A stretch of 64,000 nucleotides of DNA from the NCBI GenBank assembly GCA_017428635.1, contig JAFRQK010000020.1:34351-98350 (forward strand), written 5' to 3'. Source of the stretch: Clostridia bacterium (GTDB taxonomy: Bacteria; Bacillota; Clostridia; Oscillospirales; CAG-272). Made by a program: the position numbers and the translations under genes. The notes beneath the pieces are model-generated. The model was given only the letters and a program-made list of their open reading frames with translations. It was not told where the DNA came from and did no database searches. Below are positions 18,714-35,707 of this stretch, one piece after another (position 1 is the first letter of the stretch; each line of letters starts with the position of its first letter).

Positions 18714-19312
18714 CGCTCGCCGTCCCCGTCATCGTCGAGGGAAGGTACGATAAGGCGGCGGTCTGCTCCGTCGTCGACGCGGCGGTCATCACGACCGACG
18801 GGTTCGCCGTCTTCCGGAATTCGGAAAAGCGCGCGCTGATAAAGCGGGTTTCGGAGCGCGGTGTCGTCGTGCTCTGCGACAGCGACAAAGCGGGCGGAGT
18901 GATCCGCTCGTTTCTCAACGGAGTGGTCGACAAAGAGAAGATATACCCGGTCTACGCGCCGCGCGTTTTCGGCAAGGAAAAAAGGAAGAGGTCGCCGTCG
19001 AAAGAGGGGATCCTCGGCGTCGAGGGCGTCGGCTCCGCCGCTCTGCGGGAGATCTTCGAGACGCTCGTCAGCCGGAACCCGCATCTTCTGAAAGAGGGCG
19101 GCAAGGCGCAGCCGCGCGAGGAGGTCGTAAAAGGCGACTTTTACGAGGACGGGTTCAGCGGCAAAGACGGCGCGGCGGAAGCGCGCGACCGCCTCGCCGC
19201 GTATTTCGGTCTGCCGCCCGGGATGACGTCCGGCGCGCTCCTCTCGGCGATAAACGTGATCGCCGACAGAGCCGAGTACAAAAAAGCGGTAAAAATAATA
19301 AAAAACGGATGA
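18701..19312 (+). CDS. Toprim/DUF4093 protein, RNase M5-like
   Basis: This protein of about 203 aa starts at GTG 18701, inside the end of holA, with GGGAGG upstream. The toprim motifs are visible: PVIVEGRYDK with the catalytic Glu (residues 9-18), and LCDSDKAGG for the DxD metal site. YGKEKRKR-type sequence and PSKEGILGVEGVG follow, then a C-terminal DUF4093 region. Relatives are usually called ribonuclease M5 (5S rRNA maturation), though this subfamily has not been shown to do that. Overlap with holA implies translational coupling. Confidence 0.8.
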   Translation: MEKIALAVPVIVEGRYDKAAVCSVVDAAVITTDGFAVFRNSEKRALIKRVSERGVVVLCDSDKAGGVIRSFLNGVVDKEKIYPVYAPRVFGKEKRKRSPSKEGILGVEGVGSAALREIFETLVSRNPHLLKEGGKAQPREEVVKGDFYEDGFSGKDGAAEARDRLAAYFGLPPGMTSGALLSAINVIADRAEYKKAVKIIKNG

Positions 19313-19332
19313 AAAACGTTCGTTTTGCCCGA

Positions 19333-19391
19333 TTTGTGCAAAATGTATATGGGTAGAAAATTCGGGCCGAAAAATATACATCATGCACAAA
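19333..19391. repeat. Long inverted repeat after the toprim gene
   Basis: TTTGTGCA-AA-ATGTATAT (19333-19350) is complementary to ATATACAT-CA-TGCACAAA (19374-19391), with a 23-nt centre. The next bases form GGCGGGCCG-TTTTTT. The element may be the terminator of the holA operon, or an operator region of the following operon, which starts 350 nt away. Confidence 0.6.
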
Positions 19392-19712
19392 ACGGCGGGC
19401 CGTTTTTTGTGCGTATGACACTAAACGCTCCGCGGCGGAAAAACCGTCGCGGGGCTTCGCTTTTTCGGGCGGCAAAACTTTGTCTCCCGGCGTGTCAAAA
19501 ACGCCCGAATTCCCTGTAAAATAAGGGAAAGACGGCGATCGGAAAACGGTCGGGAAAAGGCGCTTTTTCCCGCCGCCCGAACGGGCGCGCCCGACCGTCT
19601 GTCCGAAAGCGTGAAAAAGAGCGGCGCGAAAGAGGGGCCGAAATTGGAACAAATTGTGTACGCGAAGGCGCCGTTTTCCCATACGCCGCGCGGGATCGCG
19701 CCGTTTTCTCGC

Positions 19713-19741
19713 TTGACTTCGCGCGCGTTATATGTTAATAT
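19713..19741 (+). promoter_or_regulatory. Promoter of the 12-kb glycan-transport operon
   Basis: TTGACT (19713-19718) and TAATAT (19736-19741) are 17 nt apart. The leader to the first start codon is about 245 nt and GC-rich, with a hairpin near 19930 (TTTCCGGCG-TG-CGCCGGAGA). The rest of the 19313-19991 gap holds no gene that I can support. Confidence 0.75.
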
Positions 19742-19991
19742 GTAGATACATTCCCGGGGCGCGCCGCGAGATCGCGGACAGCGGACCGGGGATTCGCGCC
19801 GTTTAAGGGCGTTCGGACGGGACCGAAATAATGCGGAGATCGCCGGAGAGTCGGCTTACCCTCATCATCCGCGGGACGCGGCCTACCGACTGCCCGGCGC
19901 GGACATTTCGTACTTTTTTCAACGGTTTCCGGCGTGCGCCGGAGACCGGAATCAACATCAGCCGGCGGATGCCGGCAGAACGGAGAGTGCC

Positions 19992-22900
19992 ATGACAAAA
20001 AAGAGTTGCCGCAGGATAATTTCGGCTTTCCTTGCGGCGGTGACGGCGGCGGGTATTTTGTCCCTGCCCGGCTTTGCGGCGGATAAATCCGTCGCGGAAG
20101 AGGAGCGGGAAAGAGTAAGTCAGTCGATATTGGACGTAATAACGGCTATCTCTTACGACAAGTACGACGACCTTCACAAAGACGCGCCGGCGGCGACGAA
20201 GACCGTCACCGTAAACGCGGCGGACGCCGTCATAGCCGACAAGACGACCGCGGAGGTCGCCGAGGAAACTCACCTGGGACGGCGCGCGCTGCGCACGTCG
20301 GATTCCGGAAAGGTGACGCTCGGGATCGACGTTCCCGAAACAGGACGGTATGTCCTCAAAATCGACTACTGTACCGTGTCGGACAAGATAAACGCCGTCG
20401 AGAGACTCCTTTACATAAACGACAAGATCGTGTTCTCCGAGGCGCGTCTGATCCAGTTGAAAAAGATCTGGAAATACGAATACGTCGAGCAGGAAGACGG
20501 CACGATGCGCTTCAAGGTCGACGGTTCGGGCAACGAGCTTCGGCCCGCGCTGAAGCCGGATCACGTCTGGCAGCAGTACGTGTGCATCGACAGGGACGGT
20601 CTGCATTCCGAACCCTTCGAGATCTATTTTGAAGCGGGGCTGAACGAACTGACCCTGCAGGCGGAGAGAGAAGAGGCGTATTTCGCCGATATCACTCTCT
20701 GCCCTGCCGAGACGGTTCCGACGTACGACGAGGTTGCGGCGGAGTATGAGCGCCGTGGTTACGCGGCGGGCTCCGACGTCATCAAGATACAGGCTGAGGA
20801 ACCGAGCGCCGTTTCCGATTCGACGCTCTTCCCGAACAACAACAGAACATCCGCGATCACCGAGCCCCAGCACGCGACGAAATATCTTCTCAACGCGATC
20901 GGCGACGCGTCGCGCGGCTATGCGAACGGGCAGTGGACGGAATACACGTTCAACATCGAGACCGCGGGTCTTTATACCGTCGTTCTGAGATACAAGCAGT
21001 CTTTCTCCTCGGGCGTTTTCGTCTCGAGAAAGATTCTTATCGATGGCGAACTCCCGTTCCAAGAAGCTGCCAATATCCGGTGCTATTCCGGCAACAACTG
21101 GAATGTGACCGAGGTTAAGGCGGAGAAAAAGAAAGAGGGTTCCGACGAGGTCGAGGAAGTTACCCTTCAGTTTTACCTTGACCGCGGCGAGCACACCGTC
21201 CGTATCGAGACGACGCTCGGAGAAATGGCGGATATCATCAGGCGCGTTGCGAACGTTCAGTCGAGCGTCAACGCGGACTACCTGCAGATCCTTCGCCTCA
21301 CCGGAGCGAACCCGGACGAGTACCGTGATTACGGTTTCAAGCGCGTCATGCCTGAGACGATCAAAGATCTGTACGCTCAGTCGAAGGTACTCAACCAGTG
21401 CATCGAAGAACTGAGCAAATTCAGTAAGAGCCGTTCGGAAATGACGGCGCTTCTCGAGCAGGCTGCGATCGTCATGGAAAAGATGGGAACCGACGAGGAC
21501 GAGATCGCCAAGAACCTCTCCGACCTCAAAACCCAGCTCGGTACGGTCGGTACGTGGGTAATCAGCGCGAAGGACCAGCCGCTCCAGCTCGACTATATCA
21601 TCATCCAGCCCGCCGGGGAGAAACTCCCTCAGACCGAGGCGAACTTCTTCCAGGCGGTGGGTTATGAATTCGGCCAGTTTTTCGGCTCTTTCTTCACCGA
21701 TTACGGCGCGATGGGCGTCGAGGACCTCTCGGCTGACACGTCTTCCACTCTCGAGGCGTGGACCGCGAAGGGCCGCGACCAGGCGCAGATAATCAGAACG
21801 GAAATCAACAATAAATTCGCTCCGACGACGGGAACGGCGGTCAACCTGAAACTCGTCGCCGGAGACGCGCTCCTTCCTGCGATCCTCGCGGGCATCGGCC
21901 CCGACGTCGCGCTCGAAGGTATGGCGGGACAAACGAACACCGGCGCGTCGGGCGATATCATGGACTACGCGCTCCGCGGAGCGCTCATCCCGATCTATAA
22001 CGAAGAAACGGGAGAGGGATTCTCCGACTTCAAGGAGGTCGAGAAGAGATTCTCGCCCAGCGCGTTCATAAACCTCAACCTCTACGGCACGATCTACGGA
22101 CTGCCCGTCGGGCAGGAATGGGATATGCTCTTCTACCGTTCCGACGTCCTCGCGGCGCTTGATCTCACCTTGCCGGAGACGTGGGACGATCTGCTCGCCA
22201 TGATCCCGGTCCTCAAATTCAACAACATGGACATGGGTATCGCTCCGGGCGACAGTCTGCTCGCCACGCTGACGTTCCAGAGAGGCTCGACGATCTGGGC
22301 GGACAACGGGATGAGGATCAACTTCGACTCCAACGCCTGCCTCGAGGCGTTCGACATGATGGCGAGTTTGTACACCCGGTACGGTCTGCCGATCGCATAC
22401 GACGGCGCGAACAGGTTCAGGACCGGTGAGATGCCTGTCCTGCTTGGCGGTTACGCCGCGACGTACAACTCCATCGTGGTCTATGCGACGGAACTTTCGG
22501 GCCTCTGGGATTTCGCACCGATCCCCGGAACGAGACAGGCGGACGGTACGGTAAACCGCACCGCCAACACGAGCGGCGACCCTGTGACGATTCCGAAGGA
22601 CTGCCGCGACACGGAAAAAGCGTGGGAATTCATGAAGTGGTACACGGATAAAGACTTCCAGTCGTCCTACGCGAACGAATTGATCGCCTTGATGGGCGAG
22701 GCCGCCAAGTACGCGACCGCGAATCTTGCGGCGCTCGAGGAGATGAACTGGACGCAGCACGAATACGAACAGCTCAAGATCCAGTCTCAGTCGCTCAGCG
22801 GATACCAGTCTTACCCCGGCAAATACTTCATCAAGCGTTACGTTTCCTTCTCGGTAAACAACGTTTACAACCAGAAAGCGGATCCGATCGAGACGATCCT

Positions 22901-23213
22901 CGGATACGTTCCGACGATAAACAAGGAGATCACCAGAAAGAGGACCGAGTTCGGTCTTGAAACGGTCGATCCCGGTCAGACGCTCGGGACGAAGCGGCTC
23001 GACGAGGCGAAAGAGCTCCTCGACGAGGTACCCGAATCCGAGAGATCGAAGTACGAACCGCTCTTCAACTCGTTCGAGACCGCTTACGCGAAACGCGACG
23101 CCGGACTGATACGCAGCTCGGCTGACGCCTTCGAAGCGGCGGACTCCGGACTGTTCGGCGAGGCGGTCGTCAAACTCAACGAGGCGGCGGACGCCTTCGA
23201 CACTTATGATTGA
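19992..23213 (+). CDS. Giant solute-binding protein with carbohydrate-binding-like domains
   Basis: This 1073-aa exported protein has a signal peptide (1 to about 30, cleavage near GFAA) but no lipobox Cys. Residues about 60-230 form one beta-rich module (ETGRYVLKIDYCT...). Residues about 260-420 resemble CBM6/35 (IKIQAEEPSAV, GQWTEYTFNIETAGLYTVVLRYKQ, LDRGEHTVRIET). From about 590 onwards comes a family-1 sugar-binding lobe pair: GPDVALEGM, SPSAFINLNLYGTIYGLPVGQEWDMLFYRSDVL, LPETWDDLL, GEMPVLLGGYAATYN, KAWEFMKWYTD. It should capture an oligosaccharide for the permeases encoded next. Typical binding proteins are 400-550 aa, so the N-terminal half is extra. The ATG follows GGAGAG. Confidence 0.88.
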   Translation: MTKKSCRRIISAFLAAVTAAGILSLPGFAADKSVAEEERERVSQSILDVITAISYDKYDDLHKDAPAATKTVTVNAADAVIADKTTAEVAEETHLGRRALRTSDSGKVTLGIDVPETGRYVLKIDYCTVSDKINAVERLLYINDKIVFSEARLIQLKKIWKYEYVEQEDGTMRFKVDGSGNELRPALKPDHVWQQYVCIDRDGLHSEPFEIYFEAGLNELTLQAEREEAYFADITLCPAETVPTYDEVAAEYERRGYAAGSDVIKIQAEEPSAVSDSTLFPNNNRTSAITEPQHATKYLLNAIGDASRGYANGQWTEYTFNIETAGLYTVVLRYKQSFSSGVFVSRKILIDGELPFQEAANIRCYSGNNWNVTEVKAEKKKEGSDEVEEVTLQFYLDRGEHTVRIETTLGEMADIIRRVANVQSSVNADYLQILRLTGANPDEYRDYGFKRVMPETIKDLYAQSKVLNQCIEELSKFSKSRSEMTALLEQAAIVMEKMGTDEDEIAKNLSDLKTQLGTVGTWVISAKDQPLQLDYIIIQPAGEKLPQTEANFFQAVGYEFGQFFGSFFTDYGAMGVEDLSADTSSTLEAWTAKGRDQAQIIRTEINNKFAPTTGTAVNLKLVAGDALLPAILAGIGPDVALEGMAGQTNTGASGDIMDYALRGALIPIYNEETGEGFSDFKEVEKRFSPSAFINLNLYGTIYGLPVGQEWDMLFYRSDVLAALDLTLPETWDDLLAMIPVLKFNNMDMGIAPGDSLLATLTFQRGSTIWADNGMRINFDSNACLEAFDMMASLYTRYGLPIAYDGANRFRTGEMPVLLGGYAATYNSIVVYATELSGLWDFAPIPGTRQADGTVNRTANTSGDPVTIPKDCRDTEKAWEFMKWYTDKDFQSSYANELIALMGEAAKYATANLAALEEMNWTQHEYEQLKIQSQSLSGYQSYPGKYFIKRYVSFSVNNVYNQKADPIETILGYVPTINKEITRKRTEFGLETVDPGQTLGTKRLDEAKELLDEVPESERSKYEPLFNSFETAYAKRDAGLIRSSADAFEAADSGLFGEAVVKLNEAADAFDTYD

Positions 23214-23247
23214 GCCCGCGCGGTCACATCAGGAGAGGAGATAGTAT

Positions 23248-24192
23248 ATGGCGAAAGAAACAAAAGTCGTCTCCCGTAAAAACATGACCAAAAGGGCGTG
23301 GACGTGGCACCTCATGAAACAGAACAAGGTCGGCTACCTCATGGTGGCGCCTTACATGATCCTGTTCTTCCTGTTCACGTTTACTCCCGTCGTTCTGTCT
23401 CTGGTCATCGGTTTTACGGACTTCAATATGCTGCAGTTTCCGCACTGGGTCGGGATGCAGAACTACGTCACGATGTTCCTTGACGACGAGCTGTTCATAA
23501 CGGCGCTCAAATGGACGCTGTTCTTCGCGCTCGTTACCGGACCCGCGTCGTACCTGCTCTCGTTCATCGTCGCGTGGTTCATCAACGACCTCGACCCGCG
23601 CATCCGCGCCCTCGTTACGGTCGTCTTCTACGCGCCGTCCCTCGGCGGCAACGCATATCTCATCTGGCAGACGCTGTTCTCCGGCGACTCGTACGGGTGG
23701 GTCAACGGTTGGCTTCTCAAACTGGGGGTGATAAGCTCGCCTATCCAGTTCTTCACGAACAAGAGCTACATCTTGCCCCTCGTTATCACCGTCGCGCTCT
23801 GGCAGTCGCTCGGCATCTCGTTTTTGTCGTTTATCGCCGGTCTTCAGGGCATCGACAGAAGCCAGTACGAGGCTGCTGCGATCGACGGTATCAAGAACAG
23901 ATGGCAGGAGGCGTGGTACGTCACTCTGCCCAACATGAAGCCGCAGCTCATGTTCGGCGCGGTCATGGCGATCACCGAAGCGTTCGGCTTCGGCGCCATC
24001 GTGACGGCGCTGTGCGGAAGTCCGCCGACGGACTACGTGGGCTATACGCTGTCGCATCATATCAGTGAATACGGTACGATCAGGTGGGAGGTCGGGTATT
24101 CCTCGGCGCTCACGTTCGTGATGTTCCTCATCATGATCGGCGCGAACCTCCTCGTTACAAAAATCATTTCAAAGGTGGGCCAGTCTGCATGA
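23248..24192 (+). CDS. Sugar ABC transporter permease, MalF/UgpA type (pair 1)
   Basis: This 314-aa protein has six membrane helices, starting at KVGYLMVAPYMILFFLFTFTPVVLSLVIGF. The ATPase-contacting EAA loop reads EAAAIDGIKNRWQEAWYVTLPNMKP (about 210-234). GGAGAGGAG precedes the ATG. Its stop overlaps the start of the next permease gene (ATGA), showing coupled translation of a heterodimer. Confidence 0.93.
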   Translation: MAKETKVVSRKNMTKRAWTWHLMKQNKVGYLMVAPYMILFFLFTFTPVVLSLVIGFTDFNMLQFPHWVGMQNYVTMFLDDELFITALKWTLFFALVTGPASYLLSFIVAWFINDLDPRIRALVTVVFYAPSLGGNAYLIWQTLFSGDSYGWVNGWLLKLGVISSPIQFFTNKSYILPLVITVALWQSLGISFLSFIAGLQGIDRSQYEAAAIDGIKNRWQEAWYVTLPNMKPQLMFGAVMAITEAFGFGAIVTALCGSPPTDYVGYTLSHHISEYGTIRWEVGYSSALTFVMFLIMIGANLLVTKIISKVGQSA

Positions 24193-25061
24193 AAAAGATG
24201 AGAACAAGACGGCACACCGTCGTACTGAACCGGTCGCGCGGGGGCGACGCCGGTATCACCGTAGCGCTCTTCATTCTCGGTTTCGTCATGGTGCTTCCGC
24301 TCTTCTACGCGGTACTCCAGTCGTTCAAACCGCTTGACGAGTTCTTCGTATTTCCCCCGCGGTTCTTCGTATCGCATCCGACGCTCAGCAACTATCAGGA
24401 TCTGTTCTTCCTCATGAGCACCTCCTGGGTGCCGTTCTCGCGGTACATCTTCAACACGGTGTTCATCTCCGTCGCCGGTACGTTCGGCCATCTGGTCTGC
24501 GCGTCCCTCGCGGCGTACGTCATGTCGAAGATGGAGATGCCCGGCAAGAAGATCATGTTCCAGATGGTACAGAAATCCCTTATGTTCAACATGGGCGTTA
24601 TGGGAACGATAACGTTCGTCATCCTCCGTTACCTCGGATGGGTCGACACCTACTGGGCGGTCATCATACCGGCGTTCCAGCAGTCGCTCGGTCTGTACCT
24701 GATGAAGCAGTTCATGGATTCCAACGTGTCGAAAGAGGTCCTCGAGTCCGCCCGTCTTGACGGCGCGCGCGAGTTCAGGATCTTCTGGTCGATCGCGATG
24801 CCGATGGTCAAGCCCGCATGGCTGACCCTGATCATCTACTGCTTCAAGGATCTGTGGAATCAGGGAACGAGCGCGGCTATTTACTCCGAACAGCTCAAAA
24901 CGCTCAACGCGGGGCTCGGTCAGATCGCCGCGGGCGGTATTGCGCGTTCGGGCGTCGCAGCCGCTTCAACCGTCATAATGATGATCGTGCCGATCATCGT
25001 GTTCGTTATCATGCAGTCGAACGTCATCGAGACGATGGGTTCGAGCGGTATGAAAGACTAA
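24189..25061 (+). CDS. Sugar ABC transporter permease, MalG/UgpE type (pair 1)
   Basis: This 290-aa protein starts at ATG 24189, overlapping the previous gene by four bases; the longer open frame upstream is out of context. Helices begin at GITVALFILGFVMVLPLFYAVLQSFKPLDEFFVFPPRF, and the EAA loop is ESARLDGAREFRIFWSIAMPMVKPA. It would form the transmembrane channel with the MalF-type partner. Confidence 0.93.
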   Translation: MKKMRTRRHTVVLNRSRGGDAGITVALFILGFVMVLPLFYAVLQSFKPLDEFFVFPPRFFVSHPTLSNYQDLFFLMSTSWVPFSRYIFNTVFISVAGTFGHLVCASLAAYVMSKMEMPGKKIMFQMVQKSLMFNMGVMGTITFVILRYLGWVDTYWAVIIPAFQQSLGLYLMKQFMDSNVSKEVLESARLDGAREFRIFWSIAMPMVKPAWLTLIIYCFKDLWNQGTSAAIYSEQLKTLNAGLGQIAAGGIARSGVAAASTVIMMIVPIIVFVIMQSNVIETMGSSGMKD

Positions 25062-25072
25062 GGAGGTACGCG

Positions 25073-27241
25073 ATGAAAAAACTGACTAAGATCCTCCTCG
25101 GTCTTCTCGTCGCGGCGACGCTCCTGCCTCTCGCGGCAAGCGCGGCCCCGTATACGACGTACACGTACACGAGCGACGGAACGATCCTGTCCTCGCCTGA
25201 CGCCTACGTTCCGGACAGAGTGGTCGACGTCGATTACATGGGGATCGAGGATTACGTCGGATCTCACAGGAACATCACGTTCGACATCGAGGCGGACTAC
25301 GACTTCAGAGACGTTTTCGTGGGACCGGACCACAAGGTCTACGTCGTGGACGGAAACCACGGAGCGCTCCTGATACTCGACAGATATTACAGGGTCGAGA
25401 AGATCCTGAACAAATTCGTGAACGAATACGGCGTTCCCGATACGTTCTCGGGTCCCACCGGCGTCTTCGTCAACGACGAACGCATCTACGTCTGCGACAC
25501 GGACAACAACCGTATCGTAATGTTCGATACGGACGCAAACTATATCAAGATAATCGAAAAACCGCAGTCGACGATCTTCGAAGAGGGCTCGATATACAAG
25601 CCCGTCGCCGTCGCGGTCGACGATTTCGGACGGCTCTTCGTCATCTCCTCGACGACCTACCAGGGCGTCATCGTCATGGACGAGAACTCCGTGTTCTCCG
25701 GCTTCATCGGAGCGCAGAAGGACACCGTGAACCTCTGGCAGGCGATCATGAGACGGTTCCAGACTGAGGAGCAGAGAGAGCAGAGCGCGGAGAGAACGTC
25801 CAAAGAGCTCAACAACATAGCGATCGACAAGGACGGTTTCCTCTACGTCACCACGTCCTCGATCGACCCCGGGATGCAGCAGTCGTCCATCACGTCCAAA
25901 TCAAAGGAAAGCGACTACGCTCCGGTCAAGAAACTCAACTCCTCAGGCGAGGACATCATGAAGCGCAACGGCTACTACCCGCCGTCGGGCGAGGTCAGCG
26001 TCGCCACAAGTACGACCGCCGAGATCAAGGGCGCGTCGGTCATCGTCGACGCCGCCGTCGGTCCCGAGGGAACGTGGTCGATCATCGACCAGAAGCGCTC
26101 CAAGGTGTTCACATACGACGACAACGGTAACCTGCTGTTCGCGTTCGGAGACCTCGGAGATCAGGTCGGCAACGTCGCGAAAGCGACCGGTATCGTCTAT
26201 CAGGATTCCAAGATCCTCCTGCTCGACAAGCAGAACGACAGCTTCGTCGTTTACAGAAGGACCGAGTACGGCGATCTGCTTCTGAACGCTCTCAAGAACG
26301 ACAACGACAGAAAGTACAACGAGGCGATCAACGACTGGACGGAGATCCTGAAGCGCAACAACAACTACGAACTCGCGTACGTCCAGATAGGTAAAGCGCT
26401 TTACCGCGACGGCAAGTACGAAGAGTCGATGGAGTATTTCGAGTCGATCAAGGAGACGGAGAACTGGTCGCTGTCCTTCGCCGAGATCCGCAAGGACTGG
26501 GCGAACAAGTACTTCTGGATCATCCCGATCATCATCGTCGCGGTCTTCATCCTCGTCGTCAAATTCTTCGCTTACGCGAGGAAAGTCAACGCCAGGGCGG
26601 CGCTCAAGGTCGGCAGGAAGAGCCTGCGCGAGGAACTCATCTACGCGTTCCACGTCATCTTCCATCCGTTCGACGGTTTCTGGGATCTGAAGCACGAGCG
26701 ACGCGGTTCCGTAAGGAGCGCGACGATAATCCTGCTCATCACGGTCCTCGCGTTCTTCTACCGGTCGGTCGGTTACGGCTACGTCGCCGCTCCCAAAGAC
26801 GCGGACGCGCTCTCCATTCTCGGAACGGTCGCGGCGGTCATCATGCCGCTCGCGCTGTTCGCCATTGCGAACTGGTGCTTCACCACTCTGTTCGAGGGCG
26901 AGGGCTCGCTTAAAGACATCTACGTGGCGTGCTGCTATTCGCTGACGCCGCTGCCGGTATTCATCATTCTCGAAACGATCCTCTCGAACTTCATCGTTTC
27001 AACGGAGACGGGGATCGTACAACTCCTTTACACGGTCGCGATGCTGTGGATGGGACTGCTCCTCTTCTTCGGAATGATGATCACCCACGACTACACGATA
27101 TTCAAAAACATAATCACGATTATAGCAACGATCATCGGAATGATGTTCCTGATGTTCGTAGGTCTGCTGTTCGTAGCGCTCATCGGACGTATGTGGTCGT
27201 TCATCCGCAACATCGTCGTCGAGCTTGCGTTCCGATCGTAA
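25073..27241 (+). CDS. NHL-propeller/TPR/Yip1 membrane protein of the glycan operon
   Basis: This 722-aa protein has a signal peptide (1-24, LAASA/AP). A beta-propeller of NHL-type repeats follows (about 55-400; HKVYVVDGNHGALLILDRYYR, ERIYVCDTDNNRIVMFDTD, GRLFVISSTTYQGVIVMDEN, SKILLLDKQNDSFVVYRRTEYG). A TPR-like pair comes next (about 415-465, AINDWTEILKRNNNYELAYVQIGKALYRDGKYEESMEYFE), then a membrane helix (YFWIIPIIIVAVFILVVKFF), and a C-terminal Yip1 domain of about five helices (HPFDGFWDLKHERRG...). Propeller and TPR should lie outside the cell. No catalytic residues are evident. It is the only membrane-anchored non-permease in the operon. The ATG at 25073 follows AGGAGG. Confidence 0.85.
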   Translation: MKKLTKILLGLLVAATLLPLAASAAPYTTYTYTSDGTILSSPDAYVPDRVVDVDYMGIEDYVGSHRNITFDIEADYDFRDVFVGPDHKVYVVDGNHGALLILDRYYRVEKILNKFVNEYGVPDTFSGPTGVFVNDERIYVCDTDNNRIVMFDTDANYIKIIEKPQSTIFEEGSIYKPVAVAVDDFGRLFVISSTTYQGVIVMDENSVFSGFIGAQKDTVNLWQAIMRRFQTEEQREQSAERTSKELNNIAIDKDGFLYVTTSSIDPGMQQSSITSKSKESDYAPVKKLNSSGEDIMKRNGYYPPSGEVSVATSTTAEIKGASVIVDAAVGPEGTWSIIDQKRSKVFTYDDNGNLLFAFGDLGDQVGNVAKATGIVYQDSKILLLDKQNDSFVVYRRTEYGDLLLNALKNDNDRKYNEAINDWTEILKRNNNYELAYVQIGKALYRDGKYEESMEYFESIKETENWSLSFAEIRKDWANKYFWIIPIIIVAVFILVVKFFAYARKVNARAALKVGRKSLREELIYAFHVIFHPFDGFWDLKHERRGSVRSATIILLITVLAFFYRSVGYGYVAAPKDADALSILGTVAAVIMPLALFAIANWCFTTLFEGEGSLKDIYVACCYSLTPLPVFIILETILSNFIVSTETGIVQLLYTVAMLWMGLLLFFGMMITHDYTIFKNIITIIATIIGMMFLMFVGLLFVALIGRMWSFIRNIVVELAFRS

Positions 27242-27256
27242 GGGGGGGTTGAAACG

Positions 27257-30200
27257 ATGAAAATTATTAAGATACTGTCAACTCTCCTTGCGCTGATCTT
27301 CATCATTTCCGCTTTCCCGCTCGCGGCGTTCGCCGAGGGAGAGGACGAGACGGAAGAAGTGACTGTGACCGACACCGCCGACGGCGCCGATGAAGAAGGC
27401 GAAGAAGGCGAAGAAGGCGAGATCACCGACGGCAAAGTCGACTACATGAACGACGGATTCGCAAGCCGGGAGGCAAAACTCGAGACTATGACCGTCGTCC
27501 GCGAACAGGACGGCTACCGTCTCTGGTACGAGGAAGTCACCGGCGAGGTCGCGATCGAGCAGATGTCGACGGGCGAGATCCTCTTCACCAACCCGTACGA
27601 CATTTCCGCTAAGGGCTCGAAGATATCGACCACGGTGAAAAAGCAGCTGCTCTCGCAGATCCGCCTCACCTACCTCGACAACGAGAAGGAAACGGAAATG
27701 TACTCCTACGTGGAGGCTGCCGAAAAAGAGCAGATCCACCTGAAGAACATCAAGAACGGTATCCGCGTCGAGTACACGCTCGGCGACGACGCCGTCCAGC
27801 GTCTCGTTCCGCGTATGATCAGCGTCGAGCGCTTTGAAAAGTTCATATCCGGACCGCTTCAGGAAGCGGTCGACGAGGGTGTTCCCGGCGCGCTCTTCGC
27901 TCAGACGAAGATGATGGGCTTCTTCACCGAGAAAAACCTCGCGAAGGCTACGACCGAGAAGGCGGTCAGAGATATGGTCGCCACGTTCCCGATCGTAAAG
28001 CAGATGGCGGTCATGGTCTGCGACAAGTCGATCAAACCGGCGCGACTCAAAGAACTCGAGGGGTACATCAAGACGTTCTGTCCCAAGTACACGTACGAGG
28101 AACTTGAGTTCGACAACGAACAGACCGGCTACGTCAACACGGACGCCGCCCCGCCGAGATTCACGCTCGCGCTCGAGTACACCGTCTCCGAGGACGGAGT
28201 ACAGGTGAGCCTGCCCGCGAACGGTATCTCGTTCGACGAGGAAGCGTATCCGCTGAAAGAGATCTCGATTTTGCCTTACATGGGAGCGGGAAGCAGCAGC
28301 TTCACCGGATATACGTTCATTCCGGACGGTTCAGGTACGATCATAAGGTACGAGGACATCAAAGACGACATCTGGAAGGTGTCGGGCCAGATGTACGGAC
28401 CGGATTACGCTTACCACGAGATCGACGCGGGCAACGAGCAGACGATGAGGATGCCGGTGTACGGTCTTGTGACGCAGTACTCGAATCCGACCGTCGCGCT
28501 TGACGAAGGGGTCCCGGTCTACAAGGATTCCGGATTCCTCGCGATCATCACCGAGGGCGACTCGATGGCGACGCTGACGAGCGAGCACGGCGGATCGCTC
28601 TACAATTACAACCACGTTTACGCAACGTTCAACCCGCGTCCGAGCGACAGTTACAATCTCGCGGATTCGGTCTCCGTATCGGGAAGCGACGCGAAGTGGA
28701 CGGTCACTTCGGAAAGACGCTATACCGGAAGGTACACGATCAAGTTCGTGATGCTGACCGGAGAAAACGGCGGCAAGGGTTATGAACCGACTTACGTGGG
28801 AATGGCCGAGGCTTACCGCGACCACCTCTACGAAGAGGGAGTTCTGACCAGGCTCGAGGCGTCGGACGATCTGCCGCTCTTCATTGAGTCGTTCGGCTCG
28901 ATCAAGACGACGAAGAGGATCGCCTCGATCCCCGTCAAGGTCGACGCTCCGCTCACGACGTTCGATAACGTCGAGACGATGGCGAACGAACTGAAGGCGG
29001 AGGGCATCGAAAACATCAACTTCAAACTCCGCGGTTTCGCGAACGGCGGTCTCAAGTCGACGATGCCGTACAAACTGAAATGGGTCGGCGAACTCGGAGG
29101 CAACGGCGGATTCTCGGATCTTGTCGCATACGCCGGCGAAAACGGCGTCGGGATCTATCCCGATTTCGACTTCGCCTACCTCTACGTCAAAGACGCCTTT
29201 GACGGCGTGAACCTCAAAAACAACGCCGTCAAGACGATCGACGACCGTTACAACAGGAAGAAGGTCTACGACCCGGCGCTCCAGACGCTCGTGCCCAACT
29301 CGGACATGGACATCGATATGGACATGACGGCGATCTCGCCCGCGTCGTTCGACTACTTCTACAGCAAACTGTCAAGCAACTATTCCGGATACGGGAACCC
29401 GGCGATCTCGCTGTCGACGCTCGGATCGGATCTTAACTCCGACTTCAACAAGAGCAACCCGTATCACCGCGAAGACAGCAAGGAGATCACGACCGATCTT
29501 CTCGCGAGAGCGAAAGAGGATTACGGTTCCGTGATGGTCTCCGGCGGAAACGCGTACGTCTACGATTACGCCGACGTCATCACCGACGTTGCGCTCACGT
29601 CGTCCGAATACATCTACGCGTCGGGCTCCGTCCCGTTCATGGGCATCGTGCTCCACGGCGCGAAGACGATCACGGGTGAGCCGCTCAACATGGAGGGCGA
29701 CCCCGAGGAAGCGCTCCTGCGCGCGATCGAGAACGGCGCGACGATAAACTTCACGCTCTCGTATCAGAACACAGACAAGCTCAAGGACAGCGAGTACTGG
29801 AGACGGTACTACTCGGTATCTTACGAGATCTGGAAGGACGACGTCGTAGAGTATTACAAGACGCTGAACGACGCGACGAAGGATCTTCAGGACAAACTCA
29901 TCGTCGGCCACGAATACGTGAAGGCGAAGAGGATACCGGACGAGGACGAACTCGAAGCGGACGCGAAGGAACTCGAAAGACTTCAGAAGGAAGCCGAAGA
30001 GCAGGCGAGGATCGACGCTGAAAAGAAAGCAAAGATCGAGAGAAGAAACGCCCGCCTCGGCACCACGACGACGGTCGTCCCGTCGGGCAGCAAAACGCCC
30101 ACCGAAGTTGATACGACCAAGTACGAGGTGACCCGCGGCACGGTCGTCGGGGTCGAGTACGAGGGCGGAGTCAAGTTCTTGCTCAACTTCAACTCGTTCG

Positions 30201-30268
30201 AAGTCACGGCCGAGTACGACGGCACGGAATACACGATCGGAGCCATGGGCTTCGTAAGAATAGGTTAA
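27257..30268 (+). CDS. Large exported DUF5696 protein
   Basis: This 1003-aa protein has a signal peptide (1 to about 26, LAAFA/EG), a Glu/Asp-rich linker (about 27-60) and a long globular region without membrane segments. DUF5696-type landmarks are DGYRLWYEEVTGEVAIEQMSTGEILFTNPYD, ISILPYMGAGSSSFTGYTFIPDGSGTIIRYED, MRMPVYGLVTQYSNPTVALDEGVPVYKDSGFLAIITEGDSMA and a later segment with alternating strands and helices suggestive of a TIM barrel (IENINFKLRGFANGG, GIYPDFDFAYLY, SYDYADVITDVAL-like). The C-terminal 90 residues contain a Glu/Lys-rich helix. A role in glycan binding or cleavage is inferred from its neighbours. AGGGGGGG precedes the ATG. Confidence 0.8.
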   Translation: MKIIKILSTLLALIFIISAFPLAAFAEGEDETEEVTVTDTADGADEEGEEGEEGEITDGKVDYMNDGFASREAKLETMTVVREQDGYRLWYEEVTGEVAIEQMSTGEILFTNPYDISAKGSKISTTVKKQLLSQIRLTYLDNEKETEMYSYVEAAEKEQIHLKNIKNGIRVEYTLGDDAVQRLVPRMISVERFEKFISGPLQEAVDEGVPGALFAQTKMMGFFTEKNLAKATTEKAVRDMVATFPIVKQMAVMVCDKSIKPARLKELEGYIKTFCPKYTYEELEFDNEQTGYVNTDAAPPRFTLALEYTVSEDGVQVSLPANGISFDEEAYPLKEISILPYMGAGSSSFTGYTFIPDGSGTIIRYEDIKDDIWKVSGQMYGPDYAYHEIDAGNEQTMRMPVYGLVTQYSNPTVALDEGVPVYKDSGFLAIITEGDSMATLTSEHGGSLYNYNHVYATFNPRPSDSYNLADSVSVSGSDAKWTVTSERRYTGRYTIKFVMLTGENGGKGYEPTYVGMAEAYRDHLYEEGVLTRLEASDDLPLFIESFGSIKTTKRIASIPVKVDAPLTTFDNVETMANELKAEGIENINFKLRGFANGGLKSTMPYKLKWVGELGGNGGFSDLVAYAGENGVGIYPDFDFAYLYVKDAFDGVNLKNNAVKTIDDRYNRKKVYDPALQTLVPNSDMDIDMDMTAISPASFDYFYSKLSSNYSGYGNPAISLSTLGSDLNSDFNKSNPYHREDSKEITTDLLARAKEDYGSVMVSGGNAYVYDYADVITDVALTSSEYIYASGSVPFMGIVLHGAKTITGEPLNMEGDPEEALLRAIENGATINFTLSYQNTDKLKDSEYWRRYYSVSYEIWKDDVVEYYKTLNDATKDLQDKLIVGHEYVKAKRIPDEDELEADAKELERLQKEAEEQARIDAEKKAKIERRNARLGTTTTVVPSGSKTPTEVDTTKYEVTRGTVVGVEYEGGVKFLLNFNSFEVTAEYDGTEYTIGAMGFVRIG

Positions 30269-30281
30269 GGAGGTGCGGGGA

Positions 30282-31247
30282 ATGAACATGGTAAAAGATA
30301 AGATCGGCTCCGCGCCGAAGAAGAAAAAGATAGCCTCTCTGGACAAGAGAAAGGCGAGGGTCGGATGGTTTTTCGTCCTCCCGTTCATCATCGGTTTCCT
30401 CTTCATTTATCTTCCTATTATATTTAACTCCATAAAATTCAGTTTCAACCACATCATCATTCAGACGAGCGGCGGCTACAAGCTTGAGTTCGTCGGATTC
30501 CAGAACTACTCTGACGCGTTCCTCGTCGACGCCGGATTCAAGGATACGCTTCTGGCGGGTCTCGGACAGCTCGTGGTCGACATTCCCGCGATCGTGCTGT
30601 TCTCCCTGTTCATCGCGCTCATCCTGAATCAGAAGATCCTCGGACGCGCTGCGTTCAGAGCGATATTCTTCATCCCGGTCATTCTGACCACCGGCCTTAT
30701 CAGTTCGATCGACGCGAGCAACAACGACTTGCTCAACCATATGACGAACGGAAGCATCGATACGGGTGCGGGAGCCGCGGGGACAGGAATTCTGTCGGCG
30801 GCCTCGCTCGAAGGCCTGTTCAAAAACATGGTCGTCGGAGGCGAGTTCGTCGAGACGATCGTCGGGATCGTCAACGGCATTTACGACATCGTCAACAGAT
30901 GCGGCGTCCAGATGCTTATCTTCCTCGCGGGTCTGCAGTCGATCTCGCCGTCCATTTACGAGTCGTGCCAGATCGACGGCGCGAGCGGATGGGAGACGTT
31001 CTGGAAGGTCACTTTCCCGATGATCTCACCGATCATTCTCGTCAACGTCGTCTACACGATCATCGACGCGTTCACGTCGGCGAGCAACCAGGTCATGACG
31101 TACATCTCCAAGGTCTACGACAGTCCGAACAACGGCAACGTCATGTCGTCGGCGATGTCGTGGACGTACTTCCTGATCGTCATTGCGATAATCGCCGCGG
31201 CGGCGGGCATCATCAGCTCCGTCGTGTTCTACCAGAGAAGAGATTGA
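30282..31247 (+). CDS. Sugar ABC transporter permease, MalF type (pair 2)
   Basis: This 321-aa protein starts at ATG 30282, eight bases after AAGGAGGT; the GTG at 30273 lies inside that ribosome site. The first helix is RVGWFFVLPFIIGFLFIYLPIIFNSIKFSF, and the EAA loop is ESCQIDGASGWETFWKVTFPMISP. Between helices 3 and 4 it carries an extra extracytoplasmic stretch of about 50 residues (SSIDASNNDLLNHMTNGSIDTGAGAAGTG...) that the pair-1 permease lacks. It could be a contact site for the large surface proteins. Confidence 0.92.
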   Translation: MNMVKDKIGSAPKKKKIASLDKRKARVGWFFVLPFIIGFLFIYLPIIFNSIKFSFNHIIIQTSGGYKLEFVGFQNYSDAFLVDAGFKDTLLAGLGQLVVDIPAIVLFSLFIALILNQKILGRAAFRAIFFIPVILTTGLISSIDASNNDLLNHMTNGSIDTGAGAAGTGILSAASLEGLFKNMVVGGEFVETIVGIVNGIYDIVNRCGVQMLIFLAGLQSISPSIYESCQIDGASGWETFWKVTFPMISPIILVNVVYTIIDAFTSASNQVMTYISKVYDSPNNGNVMSSAMSWTYFLIVIAIIAAAAGIISSVVFYQRRD

Positions 31248-31262
31248 GGGGAGGCGAGTTGA

Positions 31263-32309
31263 ATGAATAAAACGGCTGAAACCCCGAGAGTCAAAAGAGA
31301 GACGAAAAACAGGATCCGCGTTGATTTCAAGCGAACTCCTCTTCTCGAACGCCTGAGAGCGAAATTCCTGAACTTCTACACCCTCAAAAAGGTGCTGTGG
31401 TACGTGTTCAGATTCCTGCTCCTCCTCGGCGTCTCGTTCGTCATTCTCTTCCCGTTCTTCTCGAAGATATCCGCTTCGTTCATGAGCGCGTCCGACTTTA
31501 CCGACGTGACCGTGCTCCTGATCCCGAAGAACCCGACTTTGTCGACGTACGCGGCGATCATAACGGAGAACGGATATTTCCAGGCGATGGGCAACACGTT
31601 CATCCTGTCGTTCATCTGCGCAGTGCTCCAGACGTTCGTCTGCACGATGATCGGATACGGCTTCGCAAAGTTCAGATTCAAGGGAAGCAAGATCCTGTTC
31701 TTCGCCGTCATCTTCACGATGGTCGTTCCGCACGCCACGCTTCGCCTCGCGATGTTCATGAAGTTCAAGAGCTTCGACGTTCTGTGGATCGGGACCCTTC
31801 TCAACAAGATAGGGCTCACGGCGAACTCGGGCATCAACATGCTCAATACGAACTGGCCGCTCTGGATCCTCTCCGCGACCGGGCTCGCTTACAAGAACGG
31901 TCTGTTCATCTTCCTGATGAGACAGTTCTTCAAGGGCATCCCGGACGAACTCGAGGAATCCGCGTATCTCGACGGATCGGGCGTGTTCAAGACGTTCGTC
32001 TTCATCATCCTGCCGAACTCGATCACGATGATGATCACGATCTTCATGTTCTCGTTCTGCTGGCAGTGGACGGACACGTTCTACTCGAACCTGTTCTACA
32101 CGAAGTCCGGAGCGATGCTGCTGCCCTCGATCATCAAGACGCCCGCCTCTCTGCAGGAGGTCGTCAGCAAAACGGCAGGCAGCAACCTGTACTCCTCTGC
32201 GATCACGAATACCTGCGGGCTGCTCATCATCTTCCCGCTCATCATACTCTACCTCTTCGGTCAGAAGTATATCGTTCAGGGTATCGAGCGCTCGGGTATA
32301 ACGGGCTAA
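31263..32309 (+). CDS. Sugar ABC transporter permease, MalG type (pair 2)
   Basis: This 348-aa protein has a basic N-terminal cytoplasmic tail of about 55 residues before the first helix (VFRFLLLLGVSFVILFPFFSKISASFM). The EAA loop is ESAYLDGSGVFKTFVFIILPNSIT, and the end is GQKYIVQGIERSGITG. GGGGAGG precedes the ATG. It is the last gene of the operon. No ATP-binding subunit is encoded, so a shared MsiK/UgpC-type ATPase must come from elsewhere. Confidence 0.92.
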   Translation: MNKTAETPRVKRETKNRIRVDFKRTPLLERLRAKFLNFYTLKKVLWYVFRFLLLLGVSFVILFPFFSKISASFMSASDFTDVTVLLIPKNPTLSTYAAIITENGYFQAMGNTFILSFICAVLQTFVCTMIGYGFAKFRFKGSKILFFAVIFTMVVPHATLRLAMFMKFKSFDVLWIGTLLNKIGLTANSGINMLNTNWPLWILSATGLAYKNGLFIFLMRQFFKGIPDELEESAYLDGSGVFKTFVFIILPNSITMMITIFMFSFCWQWTDTFYSNLFYTKSGAMLLPSIIKTPASLQEVVSKTAGSNLYSSAITNTCGLLIIFPLIILYLFGQKYIVQGIERSGITG

Positions 32310-32328
32310 TAGGAACAAACACACAAAC

Positions 32329-32354
32329 GCGGCGGGCGCGAAAGCGTCCGCCGC
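32329..32354 (+). terminator. Hairpin at the end of the glycan-transport operon
   Basis: GCGGCGGGCGC-GAAA-GCGTCCGCCGC is a strong 11-bp stem (one G-T pair) 20 nt after the last stop codon. Only a weak T-containing tail follows. Confidence 0.6.
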
Positions 32355-32437
32355 ACTATTGCAGAGAATGATAATAAAATAATGAGATCCTGTTCTCACC
32401 TCATCCGTCTTCTCGTCTGCTTGCTCCGCAAACAGGA

Positions 32438-32502
32438 TAAAATTCTGCTTGAAATGGGACCCATCCCAATTCATCCGGCTTTGCCGGAACCGCAGAATTT
32501 TA
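32438..32502. repeat. 65-bp palindromic element
   Basis: TAAAATTCTGC (32438-32448) and GCAGAATTTTA (32492-32502) are perfect inverted repeats. Inside are ATGGGACCCAT and CCGG-CTTTG-CCGG. The size and layout recall a very small non-autonomous repeat. No duplicated target site is obvious. Confidence 0.55.
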
Positions 32503-32524
32503 CAGTTTTGAACTCTTCATTACC

Positions 32525-32700
32525 GTGTCATTCTGAGTTTAGTGAACGGAGTCGAAGAATCTATAAGCCTTCCCCTTGAGGGTAGCGGAGCGCGGGACGC
32601 GGTAGTGAATGACAATCCGGGGGATTGTCAGAGCCGCGTCCTGACCGACCCCGCAGGGGAGACAAGCTGGCAACGAAGTTGCCTGATGAGGTGACGCAAA
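32525..32700. repeat. Intergenic repeats of CATTCTGAG and GATGAGGTG type
   Basis: The block holds a 'gtcattctgag...cggagtcgaagaatc' word, a 'ccttccccttgaggg' stem, the hairpin TGACAATCC-GGGG-GATTGTCA, and an ending 'cctgatgaggtgacg'. The inverted word 'cacctcatccg' lies at about 32397-32407. These words are typical of dispersed bacterial intergenic repeats. No gene is supported between 32310 and 32717. Confidence 0.5.
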
Positions 32701-32717
32701 GAAAAAGGAATGATACT

Positions 32718-33554
32718 ATGACGGAAAATATCGCCGCGAAAGCGGTGCGCGGGAAATTCAGACGCGAGCTGTGGGGGCCGTTCATCACGGCGCTGAAAGA
32801 ATACGAACTCCTGAAAGAGGGCGACCGCGTCGCGGTCTGTATGTCGGGCGGGAAGGATTCCGCGCTTCTGGGCGTTCTCATGGACGAGCTTCACCGCCAC
32901 AGCGATTTCCCGTTCGACGTCGAGTATATCACGATGGATCCGGGGTACTCTCCCGAGAACCGGGCGAAACTCGAGGAAAACGCAAAGATCCTCGGGCTTC
33001 CCCTGCGCGTCTTCGAGACGAACGTTTTTCGCGTGGCGAACCGGCAGGAGAAGTCTCCCTGCTACCTCTGCGCCCGGATGAGACGCGGCCATCTGTACAA
33101 CTATGCCCGCGAGCTCGGGTGCAACAAGATCGCGCTCGGCCACCATATGACGGACGCCGCCGTGACGGTGCTGATGGGGATGATATGGGGCTCGCAGATC
33201 TCCGGGATGCTCCCGCGTCTCTCCAGCACCAACTTCGAGGGGATGGAACTGATCCGTCCGCTCATCCGGATAAAAGAGGACGATATCGTCCGCTGGGCGA
33301 AATACTGCGGCCTTGAGTTCCTCGGCTGCGCGTGCGCCATGACTGAGGACGACGACCGGTATTCCTCGCGGCGGGCGTGGACGAAAGAGTTGATCCGGCG
33401 GCTCGGCGCGGACTGCCCCGATATCGAGATCAACCTTTTCAACAGCACGAAAAACGTGATGCTCGACACCCTTACGGGATATAAGGAAAACGGGACGGAG
33501 CACACGTTCCTCGAGCGGTTCGGGGACGGCTCGTTTAGCACTCGGGATGAATGA
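32718..33554 (+). CDS. TtcA-family PP-loop tRNA thiolation enzyme
   Basis: This 278-aa protein has the PP-loop SGGKDS (about 40-45), the paired cysteines CYLCARMRRGHLY (about 113-125) and a third Cys region GCACAM (about 206-211), the arrangement used by TtcA-like enzymes to hold an iron-sulfur cluster. GHHMTDAAVTVLMGMIWGSQISGMLPRLS is the conserved ATP/tRNA segment. It probably 2-thiolates a tRNA base, C32 if it is a true TtcA. It is shorter than E. coli TtcA (311 aa) and closer to clostridial homologues. The ATG at 32718 follows AAAGGA. Confidence 0.85.
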   Translation: MTENIAAKAVRGKFRRELWGPFITALKEYELLKEGDRVAVCMSGGKDSALLGVLMDELHRHSDFPFDVEYITMDPGYSPENRAKLEENAKILGLPLRVFETNVFRVANRQEKSPCYLCARMRRGHLYNYARELGCNKIALGHHMTDAAVTVLMGMIWGSQISGMLPRLSSTNFEGMELIRPLIRIKEDDIVRWAKYCGLEFLGCACAMTEDDDRYSSRRAWTKELIRRLGADCPDIEINLFNSTKNVMLDTLTGYKENGTEHTFLERFGDGSFSTRDE

Positions 33555-33637
33555 ATGCGAGGAAAAACGGGTAAAAAGGAAAAATCGGTCAAAAATGACG
33601 TTAAATGTTAATTAAATGTAAACCTTGAAAAAACCCC

Positions 33638-33666
33638 TTGATTTTTGGAAAAGTCGGGGCTAAAAT
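33638..33666 (+). promoter_or_regulatory. Promoter of groESL
   Basis: TTGATT (33638-33643) and TAAAAT (33661-33666) are 17 nt apart, immediately upstream of the CIRCE operator. Confidence 0.8.
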
Positions 33667-33679
33667 AATAAAGCAAAGG

Positions 33680-33706
33680 TTGGCACTCAGTTACGCTGAG
33701 TGCTAA
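33680..33706 (+). promoter_or_regulatory. CIRCE operator (HrcA binding site)
   Basis: TTGGCACTC-N9-GAGTGCTAA differs from the consensus TTAGCACTC-N9-GAGTGCTAA at one base and has the exact 9-nt spacer. It lies over the expected transcription start and predicts HrcA repression of groESL relieved by heat shock. Confidence 0.95.
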
Positions 33707-33753
33707 ATTATCAAAATAAAGCGCGAAAGCGCATAACGGAGGAGGTCATTATA

Positions 33754-34038
33754 ATGACTATCAAACCACTTGCTGACAGAGTCGTCGTCAAGGCGATCGA
33801 AGCGGAAGAAAAAACGTCGGGCGGCATCGTTCTCCCGGGCAAAGCGCAGGAGAAACCGCAGGTAGCGGAAGTCGTCGCGGTAGGCCCCGGCGGTACGGTC
33901 GACGGTAAAGAGGTCGTCATGACCGTCAAGGTCGGCGATCGCGTTATCACGAGCAAATATTCCGGAACCGACGTGAAATGCGACGGCGAGGAATACAGCA
34001 TCGTAAGACAGAGCGATATACTCGCCATCGTCGAGTGA
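33754..34038 (+). CDS. groES: Co-chaperonin GroES
   Basis: This 94-aa protein begins MTIKPLADRVVVKAIEAEEKTSGGIVLPGKAQEKPQ, which includes the mobile loop (TSGGIVLPG) that docks on GroEL, and ends with YSIVRQSDILAIVE. The ATG at 33754 follows GGAGGAGG; a longer open frame to 33700 lies in the leader. It is encoded 31 nt upstream of groEL. Confidence 0.98.
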   Translation: MTIKPLADRVVVKAIEAEEKTSGGIVLPGKAQEKPQVAEVVAVGPGGTVDGKEVVMTVKVGDRVITSKYSGTDVKCDGEEYSIVRQSDILAIVE

Positions 34039-34063
34039 CGGCGGGCGGATGAAAGGAGACTGA

Positions 34064-35707
<1,644 letters not shown>

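Follow-up and report, generated by a model that had tools for sequence, protein, structure and literature searches.

A seven-gene operon at positions 19992–32309 of the DNA analysed here (hereafter the window: a 64-kb stretch of contig JAFRQK010000020.1 from a Clostridia bacterium) may well encode one conserved glycan-import machine of the Bacillota, composed of two CUT1-type ABC channels and an accessory module of extracellular and membrane proteins; we put the probability of this reading at roughly 0.58. Coordinates are positions within the window and refer to the + strand unless stated otherwise (Table 1). The seven genes lie on the same strand with short or overlapping junctions and encode, in order, a large solute-binding protein (SBP), permeases F1 and G1, an NHL-TPR-Yip1 protein, a DUF5696 protein, and permeases F2 and G2. 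An earlier note on this DNA had described such an operon, and its position, strand and, largely, its Pfam architecture were confirmed. The intergenic gaps are 34, −4, 11, 15, 13 and 15 bp, given the starts of G1 at 24189 and of F2 at 30282, both slightly downstream and judged the better ones from ribosome-binding-site spacing.

There are three main lines of evidence. First, many related bacteria carry the same gene set, and this recurrence points to a single import machine. We compared 40 regions of up to 20 kb each around DUF5696 matches in other genomes, scoring their frames with profiles that were started from the window proteins and iterated on the same 40 loci that they then scored. Matches to the NHL protein, DUF5696 and permease F2 are present in all 40, and the canonical order SBP-F1-G1-NHL-(Yip1)-DUF-F2-G2 is found in 32; a contig end truncates the SBP in L077 and L086, and the SBP of L062 and L063 extends to the region edge. 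The two blocks are swapped but complete in L095 and L099, the order is permuted in L096, and the NHL/Yip1 protein is split over two or more frames in 15 regions and annotated as two genes in Butyrivibrio. A further 80 loci were taken from named contigs with close DUF5696 proteins (records very near the window's genome may have been left out, and some loci, e.g. L064 and L111, are duplicated between the two sets); 70 of them hold all seven genes in canonical order, and the other 10 are cut by contig ends. The closest DUF5696 proteins on named contigs come from metagenome bins of Clostridia, the first two of which derive from sheep omasum and from a set named RUG. In all 135 DUF5696 frames, some of them from duplicate loci, NHL/Yip1 is the first unit gene met on the upstream side; on the downstream side it is F2 in 131, with three having none before the contig end and one being a split frame. 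Frequent occurrence of the NHL-Yip1 and DUF5696 genes without permeases, which the earlier note had named among the observations that would refute its proposal, is thus not what is found. As judged from gene order, the seven genes form one conserved unit.

Second, NHL-TPR-Yip1 and DUF5696 are inherited together. In a phylum sample of 398 genomes, own genome included, strong matches to the two coincide in the same 41 genomes, strong denoting a best E value of up to 5.7e-125 for DUF5696 and up to 1.9e-100 for NHL-TPR-Yip1 (up to 3.7e-71 and up to 1e-30, respectively, among relatives). Of 59 relatives, own genome again included, 43 have both, one (G006) has NHL only and one (G049) DUF5696 only; these last two look like contig-end effects, the G049 match starting 818 bases from the contig start and the G006 match ending at model position 612. 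Left out as weak were G280, whose match to the propeller is partial (E 2.7e-60) and lies on an 8.5-kb contig without a score for any other unit profile, and three genomes with DUF5696 over the Pfam cut-off (G331, G352 and G050) that are taken up below. Another 90 of the 398 genomes have only weaker NHL-type matches, which were taken as other propeller proteins. Together with the adjacency to F2, the coincidence in 41 genomes supports a single co-inherited unit of NHL-Yip1, DUF5696 and permeases. One order-level relative with a 1.8-Mb genome (G045; locus L071 is on its contig C14) has six strong DUF5696 matches on six contigs.

Third, the operon has the features by which CUT1 importers are recognised, namely an SBP_bac_1 binder, permease heterodimers with the EAA loop, and an ATPase of the MalK/UgpC/MsmX type elsewhere in the genome. 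The two complete MalFG-type permease pairs described earlier are borne out: all four proteins match BPD_transp_1 over cut-off and keep an EAA-like loop, and the F1 sequences group apart from those of F2 as a distinct clade (support 0.995) and the G1 sequences apart from those of G2 (support 0.998), with no misplaced sequence in either case. The reported lack of an ATPase also stands, with none among the seven genes and a single OB_MalK match, over the UgpC model cut-off, on contig C76 of the window's own assembly (2.27 Mb, 79 contigs, 96% complete). We infer that this MalK-type ATPase serves the operon and that sugar import would be driven by ATP. In Paenibacillus cellulosilyticus a ugpC gene lies directly upstream of the operon, and one MsmK serves the CUT1 importers of C. 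bescii according to passages of PMC8579813. The window's own assembly has 12 permease matches, of which four are in the operon, two lie beside Pot-like genes, four form two adjacent pairs (C41, C3) and two are single; from these pairings, the operon would appear to be the only CUT1 importer of this assembly.

The large SBP had been described as a protein of double size with carbohydrate-binding-like modules. The size stands, and the modules are clearer in the family than in the window protein alone, where they fall below cut-off (CBM_35 E 0.066, CBM_6 E 0.072). Of 22 aligned family members, eight match CBM_35 and nine match Golvesin_C at E 0.01, and the profile of the N-terminal module reaches the cycloisomaltooligosaccharide glucanotransferase 5x7g (E 8.4e-9) over a part of that protein that we take to be its CBM35. 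The best solved relative of the family profile of the SBP domain is 5ysb (Lin1841; E 5.5e-34), presumably a sophorooligosaccharide binder, and in profile searches the linker region matches designed coiled coils. The protein seems mostly not to be lipid-anchored, because a strict lipobox pattern occurs in only one of 36 large SBP frames and just three more (L067, L074 and L078) have, by eye, a Cys acceptable to a looser pattern; some members look like signal anchors.

The profile of the NHL-TPR-Yip1 protein matches designed Pizza propellers, the NHL domains of TRIM71 and PknD, and consensus TPRs, and both Yip1 (PF04893) and NHL are matched by all 20 aligned members at E 0.01. The earlier note associated Yip1 domains with membrane trafficking. 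Hydropathy identifies an N-terminal segment, one segment at residues 481–499 and five in the Yip1 part; the propeller and TPR come after the signal and ahead of the first membrane segment. If the N-terminal segment is a cleaved signal, then the propeller and TPR would be outside the cell.

The DUF5696 profile, built from 36 members, matches 8rzg/8rzk (E 8.1e-11), DagB (5opq; E 8.3e-11) and NagBb (5wzn; E 9.6e-8) in a PDB profile search. With 8rzg/8rzk the N-terminal and barrel segments align in the same order, a third, C-terminal segment not being significant alone, and hhalign against three proteins of glycoside hydrolase (GH) family GH129 spans 348 columns (probability 82%, E 1.1e-5). By these profile comparisons DUF5696 is distantly related to the GH129/DagB glycosidases. 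Plain membership of GH129 was rejected, since PF11308 is matched by none of the 36 members at E 0.01 and the catalytic pair is not conserved. PF11308 itself is found in 1 of 39 relatives and 3 of 21 genomes in the family of G050; it was matched in 0 of 299 phylum genomes, a scan result that does not show absence. A candidate second DUF5696 copy in the window's own genome was also discarded, being a weak match to a protein (L002) that on inspection reads as a GH13-type alpha-amylase.

Passages of PMC5698469 name Asp435 of NagBb as catalytic, and DagB is described there as retaining only Asp435 of the two NagBb catalytic residues. The NagBb segment containing Asp435 and the Glu at 478 aligns to the GH129 reference sequences, and the equivalent strands of DUF5696 end in GISxxxLG and GGNAY. 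We take Glu478 to be the acid/base residue. Among 88 of the 135 DUF5696 sequences, chosen to share less than 60% identity with each other, an acid is present at 719–721 in 20 and at 762 in 48; within this remote alignment, acids lie near both catalytic positions in 12 and near neither in 30. The Asp that follows beta-7 in GH129 is Asp in none of the 88 and Gly in 87, and the window protein has Ser720, Thr721 and Ser762. The trimming of glycan by DUF5696 that the earlier note had suggested is therefore not supported by conservation of the GH129 pair. Since only 12 of 88 sequences have acids near both positions, DUF5696 is probably a glycan-binding pseudo-enzyme, a likelier role than that of a trimmer.

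We propose that the large SBP would capture an oligo- or polysaccharide, aided by its CBM-like modules, and that DUF5696 would hold the glycan in a dead active-site cleft. The NHL-TPR-Yip1 protein would serve as a scaffold in the membrane: its propeller and TPR would lie outside, its Yip1 part would adjoin the permeases, and the protein would hold binders and channels close to one another. Both permease pairs would take up the substrate or fragments of it, with energy from a shared UgpC/MsmX-type ATPase. Most other sampled lineages add ordinary SBPs, and some loci GHs of different families. Both the formation of such a complex and its substrate are predictions drawn from sequence.

Several observations weigh against this proposal. 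SBPs of ordinary size adjoin the operon in 17 of the 20 loci outside the window-order set. They were identified with a profile built from 11 proteins out of eight of the 17 positive loci (the sources with Pfam SBP matches being L082, L087, L089, L092, L095, L097 and L099); the small SBP of L101 is on the opposite strand and that of L098 scores low (48.7). None adjoins the operon in the 20 window-order loci; among the 80 further window-order loci two have a small SBP, which in one case is on the opposite strand, and of 15 extra regions 10 have one. The plasmid pNP243 locus of Butyrivibrio fibrisolvens carries two small SBPs along with GH43, a histidine kinase and a response regulator, and the P. 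cellulosilyticus locus also has two small SBPs. A lipobox is recognised by eye in 5 of the 11 small SBPs printed. The notion of one binder for two channels, put forward in the earlier note, is thus partly contradicted by the 17 other loci and by two named plasmids, and on this distribution it is a local trait of the window's clade.

Further points on the same side concern the integrity of the unit and its enzymes. The NHL-DUF-F2-G2 block stands alone, with no large SBP-F1-G1 nearby, in 5 of the 40 regions (L087, L088, L091, L092 and L094), although two of these, L091 and L094, are near contig ends. Weak DUF5696 matches without strong NHL-Yip1 are present in G331 and G352 (E 2.2e-6 and 7.7e-6), the extra two among the 43 of 398 genomes that have DUF5696 over the Pfam cut-off, and in G050, one of the relatives (E 2.8e-14), which has no NHL match. 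A scan for GHs covered 30 chosen flanking frames, 20 from 15 non-window-order loci and 10 from eight window-order loci. Adjacent GHs, which count in favour of the proposal, were found in five of the 15 non-window-order loci (GH31 in L088, PF10091 and GH35 in L090, GH43 in L097, GH3 on the opposite strand in L101, and GH30 in L083). Against it, the 10 window-order frames gave only a single GH match, to GH16 (25.7 bits against a cut-off of 22, in an L078 protein that also has WD40 repeats), besides a carbohydrate esterase in L080. The adjacent GHs are of several families that differ among loci, so no substrate follows from them; the chassis would be common to the lineages and its substrate probably differs by host. 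Finally, residues D357, D383 and E825 of DUF5696 are nearly invariant and D729 is acidic in 78 of 88 sequences, and because of this conservation and the remoteness of the alignment the pseudo-enzyme interpretation is held as probable but not proven.

The small SBPs lead to a different account of the locus, as two independent CUT1 importers in one operon: the large SBP would serve F1/G1 and a small SBP F2/G2, NHL-Yip1 and DUF5696 would belong with the second importer only, and the window's clade would have lost the small SBP. The frequency of small SBPs outside the window-order set agrees with this, as do the loci with the NHL-DUF-F2-G2 block alone and the movement of [NHL-DUF-F2-G2] and [SBP-F1-G1] as blocks in the swapped loci L095, L099, L196 and L198. 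However, 32 of 40 and 70 of 80 loci retain both blocks together in canonical order, and a small SBP is not tied to one permease pair: it precedes the large SBP, precedes NHL, or follows G2. Moreover, a search of the window's own assembly for the SBP_bac_1 family found two proteins, that of the operon and a Pot-like one, which is clustered with a PotA-model ATPase and matches the PotD and PotF models best, below their cut-offs; F2/G2 would then be left without such an SBP. SBP_bac_1 matches range from 0 to 23 per genome among 60 genomes (own and relatives), so having this operon as the sole CUT1 importer would not be general. Overall we consider two separate importers unlikely. We think it slightly less likely still that DUF5696 is a glycosidase barrel turned transport receptor that delivers glycan to F2/G2 while the giant SBP serves F1/G1, with NHL-TPR-Yip1 as an extra subunit coupling both into a two-pore polysaccharide importer; the DUF5696 gene does lie directly before F2/G2, where an SBP usually lies.

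It is similarly doubtful that DUF5696 is an active hydrolase whose trimming of glycan would depend not on the GH129 pair but on different residues (e.g. D729, an acid at 762, or H800), a role compatible with the single-machine reading. Its distant GH129/DagB homology, its conserved acids (including that at 762, acidic in 48 of 88) and the occurrence of changed catalytic residues in related enzymes, as in DagB with only Asp435 (passages of PMC5698469), all argue for activity, whereas the scarcity of acids at 719–721, the few sequences acidic at both sites and the many at neither, the absence of the beta-7 Asp, and the serines and threonine of the window protein argue against it. A role in glycan sensing rather than nutrition, in which the propeller-TPR-Yip1 protein would report binder occupancy to the cell and import would be secondary, seems very improbable. 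The predicted position of the propeller and TPR ahead of the first membrane segment would suit it, as would the two-component genes next to the unit in Butyrivibrio and an AraC-type regulator with a GGDEF-like domain near L085; but all four permeases have EAA-like loops, and signalling domains are absent from the Pfam matches of the seven proteins.

Table 1. Features of the operon and its upstream region, in window positions.
Positions	Strand	Feature	Evidence
19713..19741	+	Promoter-like site TTGACT-17-TAATAT, TG before second hexamer; ~250 bp upstream of first gene	Consensus scan, 9/12
19992..23213	+	Large SBP, 1073 aa: N-terminal hydrophobic segment, beta-sandwich CBM35/6-like modules, helical linker, SBP domain	
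20913..21221	+	Second CBM6/CBM35-like module, aa 308-410	CBM_6 E 0.072, below cut-off in window protein alone
21825..22655	+	SBP_bac_1 domain, aa 612-888	Pfam E 7e-20, over cut-off
23248..24192	+	Permease F1, MalF type	BPD_transp_1 E 1.9e-15; F1 clade
24189..25061	+	Permease G1, MalG type, ATG start 24189	BPD_transp_1 E 5.6e-8; G1 clade
25073..27241	+	NHL propeller-TPR-TM-Yip1 protein, 722 aa	NHL E 7.5e-6; TPR below cut-off
26648..27160	+	Yip1 domain, aa 526-696; five hydrophobic segments within or just after	Pfam PF04893 E 8.1e-16; hydropathy
27257..30268	+	DUF5696 protein, 1003 aa, N-terminal signal-like segment, GH129/DagB-related	
28097..29923	+	DUF5696 Pfam domain, aa 281-889	E 8.2e-151
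29405..29542	+	DUF5696 aa 717-762, GH129 nucleophile (~720) through acid/base (~762) equivalents; conserved acidic pair absent	
30282..31247	+	Permease F2, MalF type, ATG start 30282 (GTG 30273 possible)	BPD_transp_1 E 8.6e-11; F2 clade
31263..32309	+	Permease G2, MalG type	BPD_transp_1 E 9.5e-12; G2 clade

The consensus scan found two promoter-like sites in the region, compared with a mean of 0.3 in shuffles; one lies within the first gene, and the other, listed in Table 1, is a sequence resemblance, not evidence of function. No terminator-like site was found in 32250–32750, and no Rfam family was matched at gathering score in 19000–34200. The intergenic segment 32565–32652 after the operon has long exact runs in common with contig C76 of the same genome (L187, ~10288–10375, reverse strand) and is probably a dispersed repeat. 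Many long antisense open frames overlap the real genes (e.g. 19803–22760, 985 aa, minus strand) and presumably are an effect of base composition, not genes.

Other loci have noteworthy neighbors. An Omp85/POTRA gene near one copy of the unit (L100:15273-17090) suggests that outer-membrane-bearing Bacillota also carry it. In P. cellulosilyticus (L210:19952-29175) the unit precedes four LLM-class flavin oxidoreductases, an NADPH-dependent oxidoreductase and the two small SBPs, a set reminiscent of sulfosugar monooxygenase clusters. At L086:10525-18000, two partial small-SBP frames that overlap each other come after the unit, and behind them lie four more in a row, the last at the region end.

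The proteins of the unit already carry family names in public records and the unit itself is apparently undescribed; in one open-licence literature library we found no description of the seven-gene unit, and no literature on DUF5696 or on Yip1, NHL and an ABC transporter together. A tightly conserved unit that combines a functionally uncharacterised family, a Yip1 protein and a candidate pseudo-glycosidase offers three testable roles. Because assemblies from gut and rumen as well as named strains of Butyrivibrio and Paenibacillus carry it, large-glycan uptake by Gram-positive-lineage bacteria could be tested directly. Should our reading prove correct, a bacterial Yip1 domain would gain a role linked to transport, and DUF5696 would have a function assigned to it.

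Import of a large glycan by an ABC-type system, as proposed for this operon, has a precedent in the alginate superchannel of Sphingomonas A1 (AlgS, AlgM1, AlgM2 and AlgQ1/AlgQ2). To our knowledge, the superchannel has one permease pair and, unlike the operon, no NHL, Yip1 or DUF5696 partners. The xyloglucan binder Athe_2052 is likewise an unusually large SBP, the comparison being one of size, and the words 'permease', 'Yip1' and 'DUF' do not appear in the portions of PMC12710961 that concern it. DUF5696 resembles the GH129 alpha-N-acetylgalactosaminidase NagBb, the GH129-like 3,6-anhydro-D-galactosidase DagB and the DagB relatives 8rzg/8rzk in its profile matches, but unlike these it lacks a conserved nucleophile and acid/base pair and has Gly in place of the Asp after beta-7. 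As a whole the operon is most readily compared with the CUT1 importers that share an MsmX/MsmK ATPase, as in C. bescii (passages of PMC8579813), with which it has in common an SBP_bac_1 binder, a BPD_transp_1 heterodimer, EAA-like loops and an ATPase encoded elsewhere; it differs from ordinary CUT1 importers in its two permease pairs, its double-size binder, and its NHL-TPR-Yip1 and DUF5696 proteins, the NHL protein and DUF5696 being present in 40 of 40 loci.

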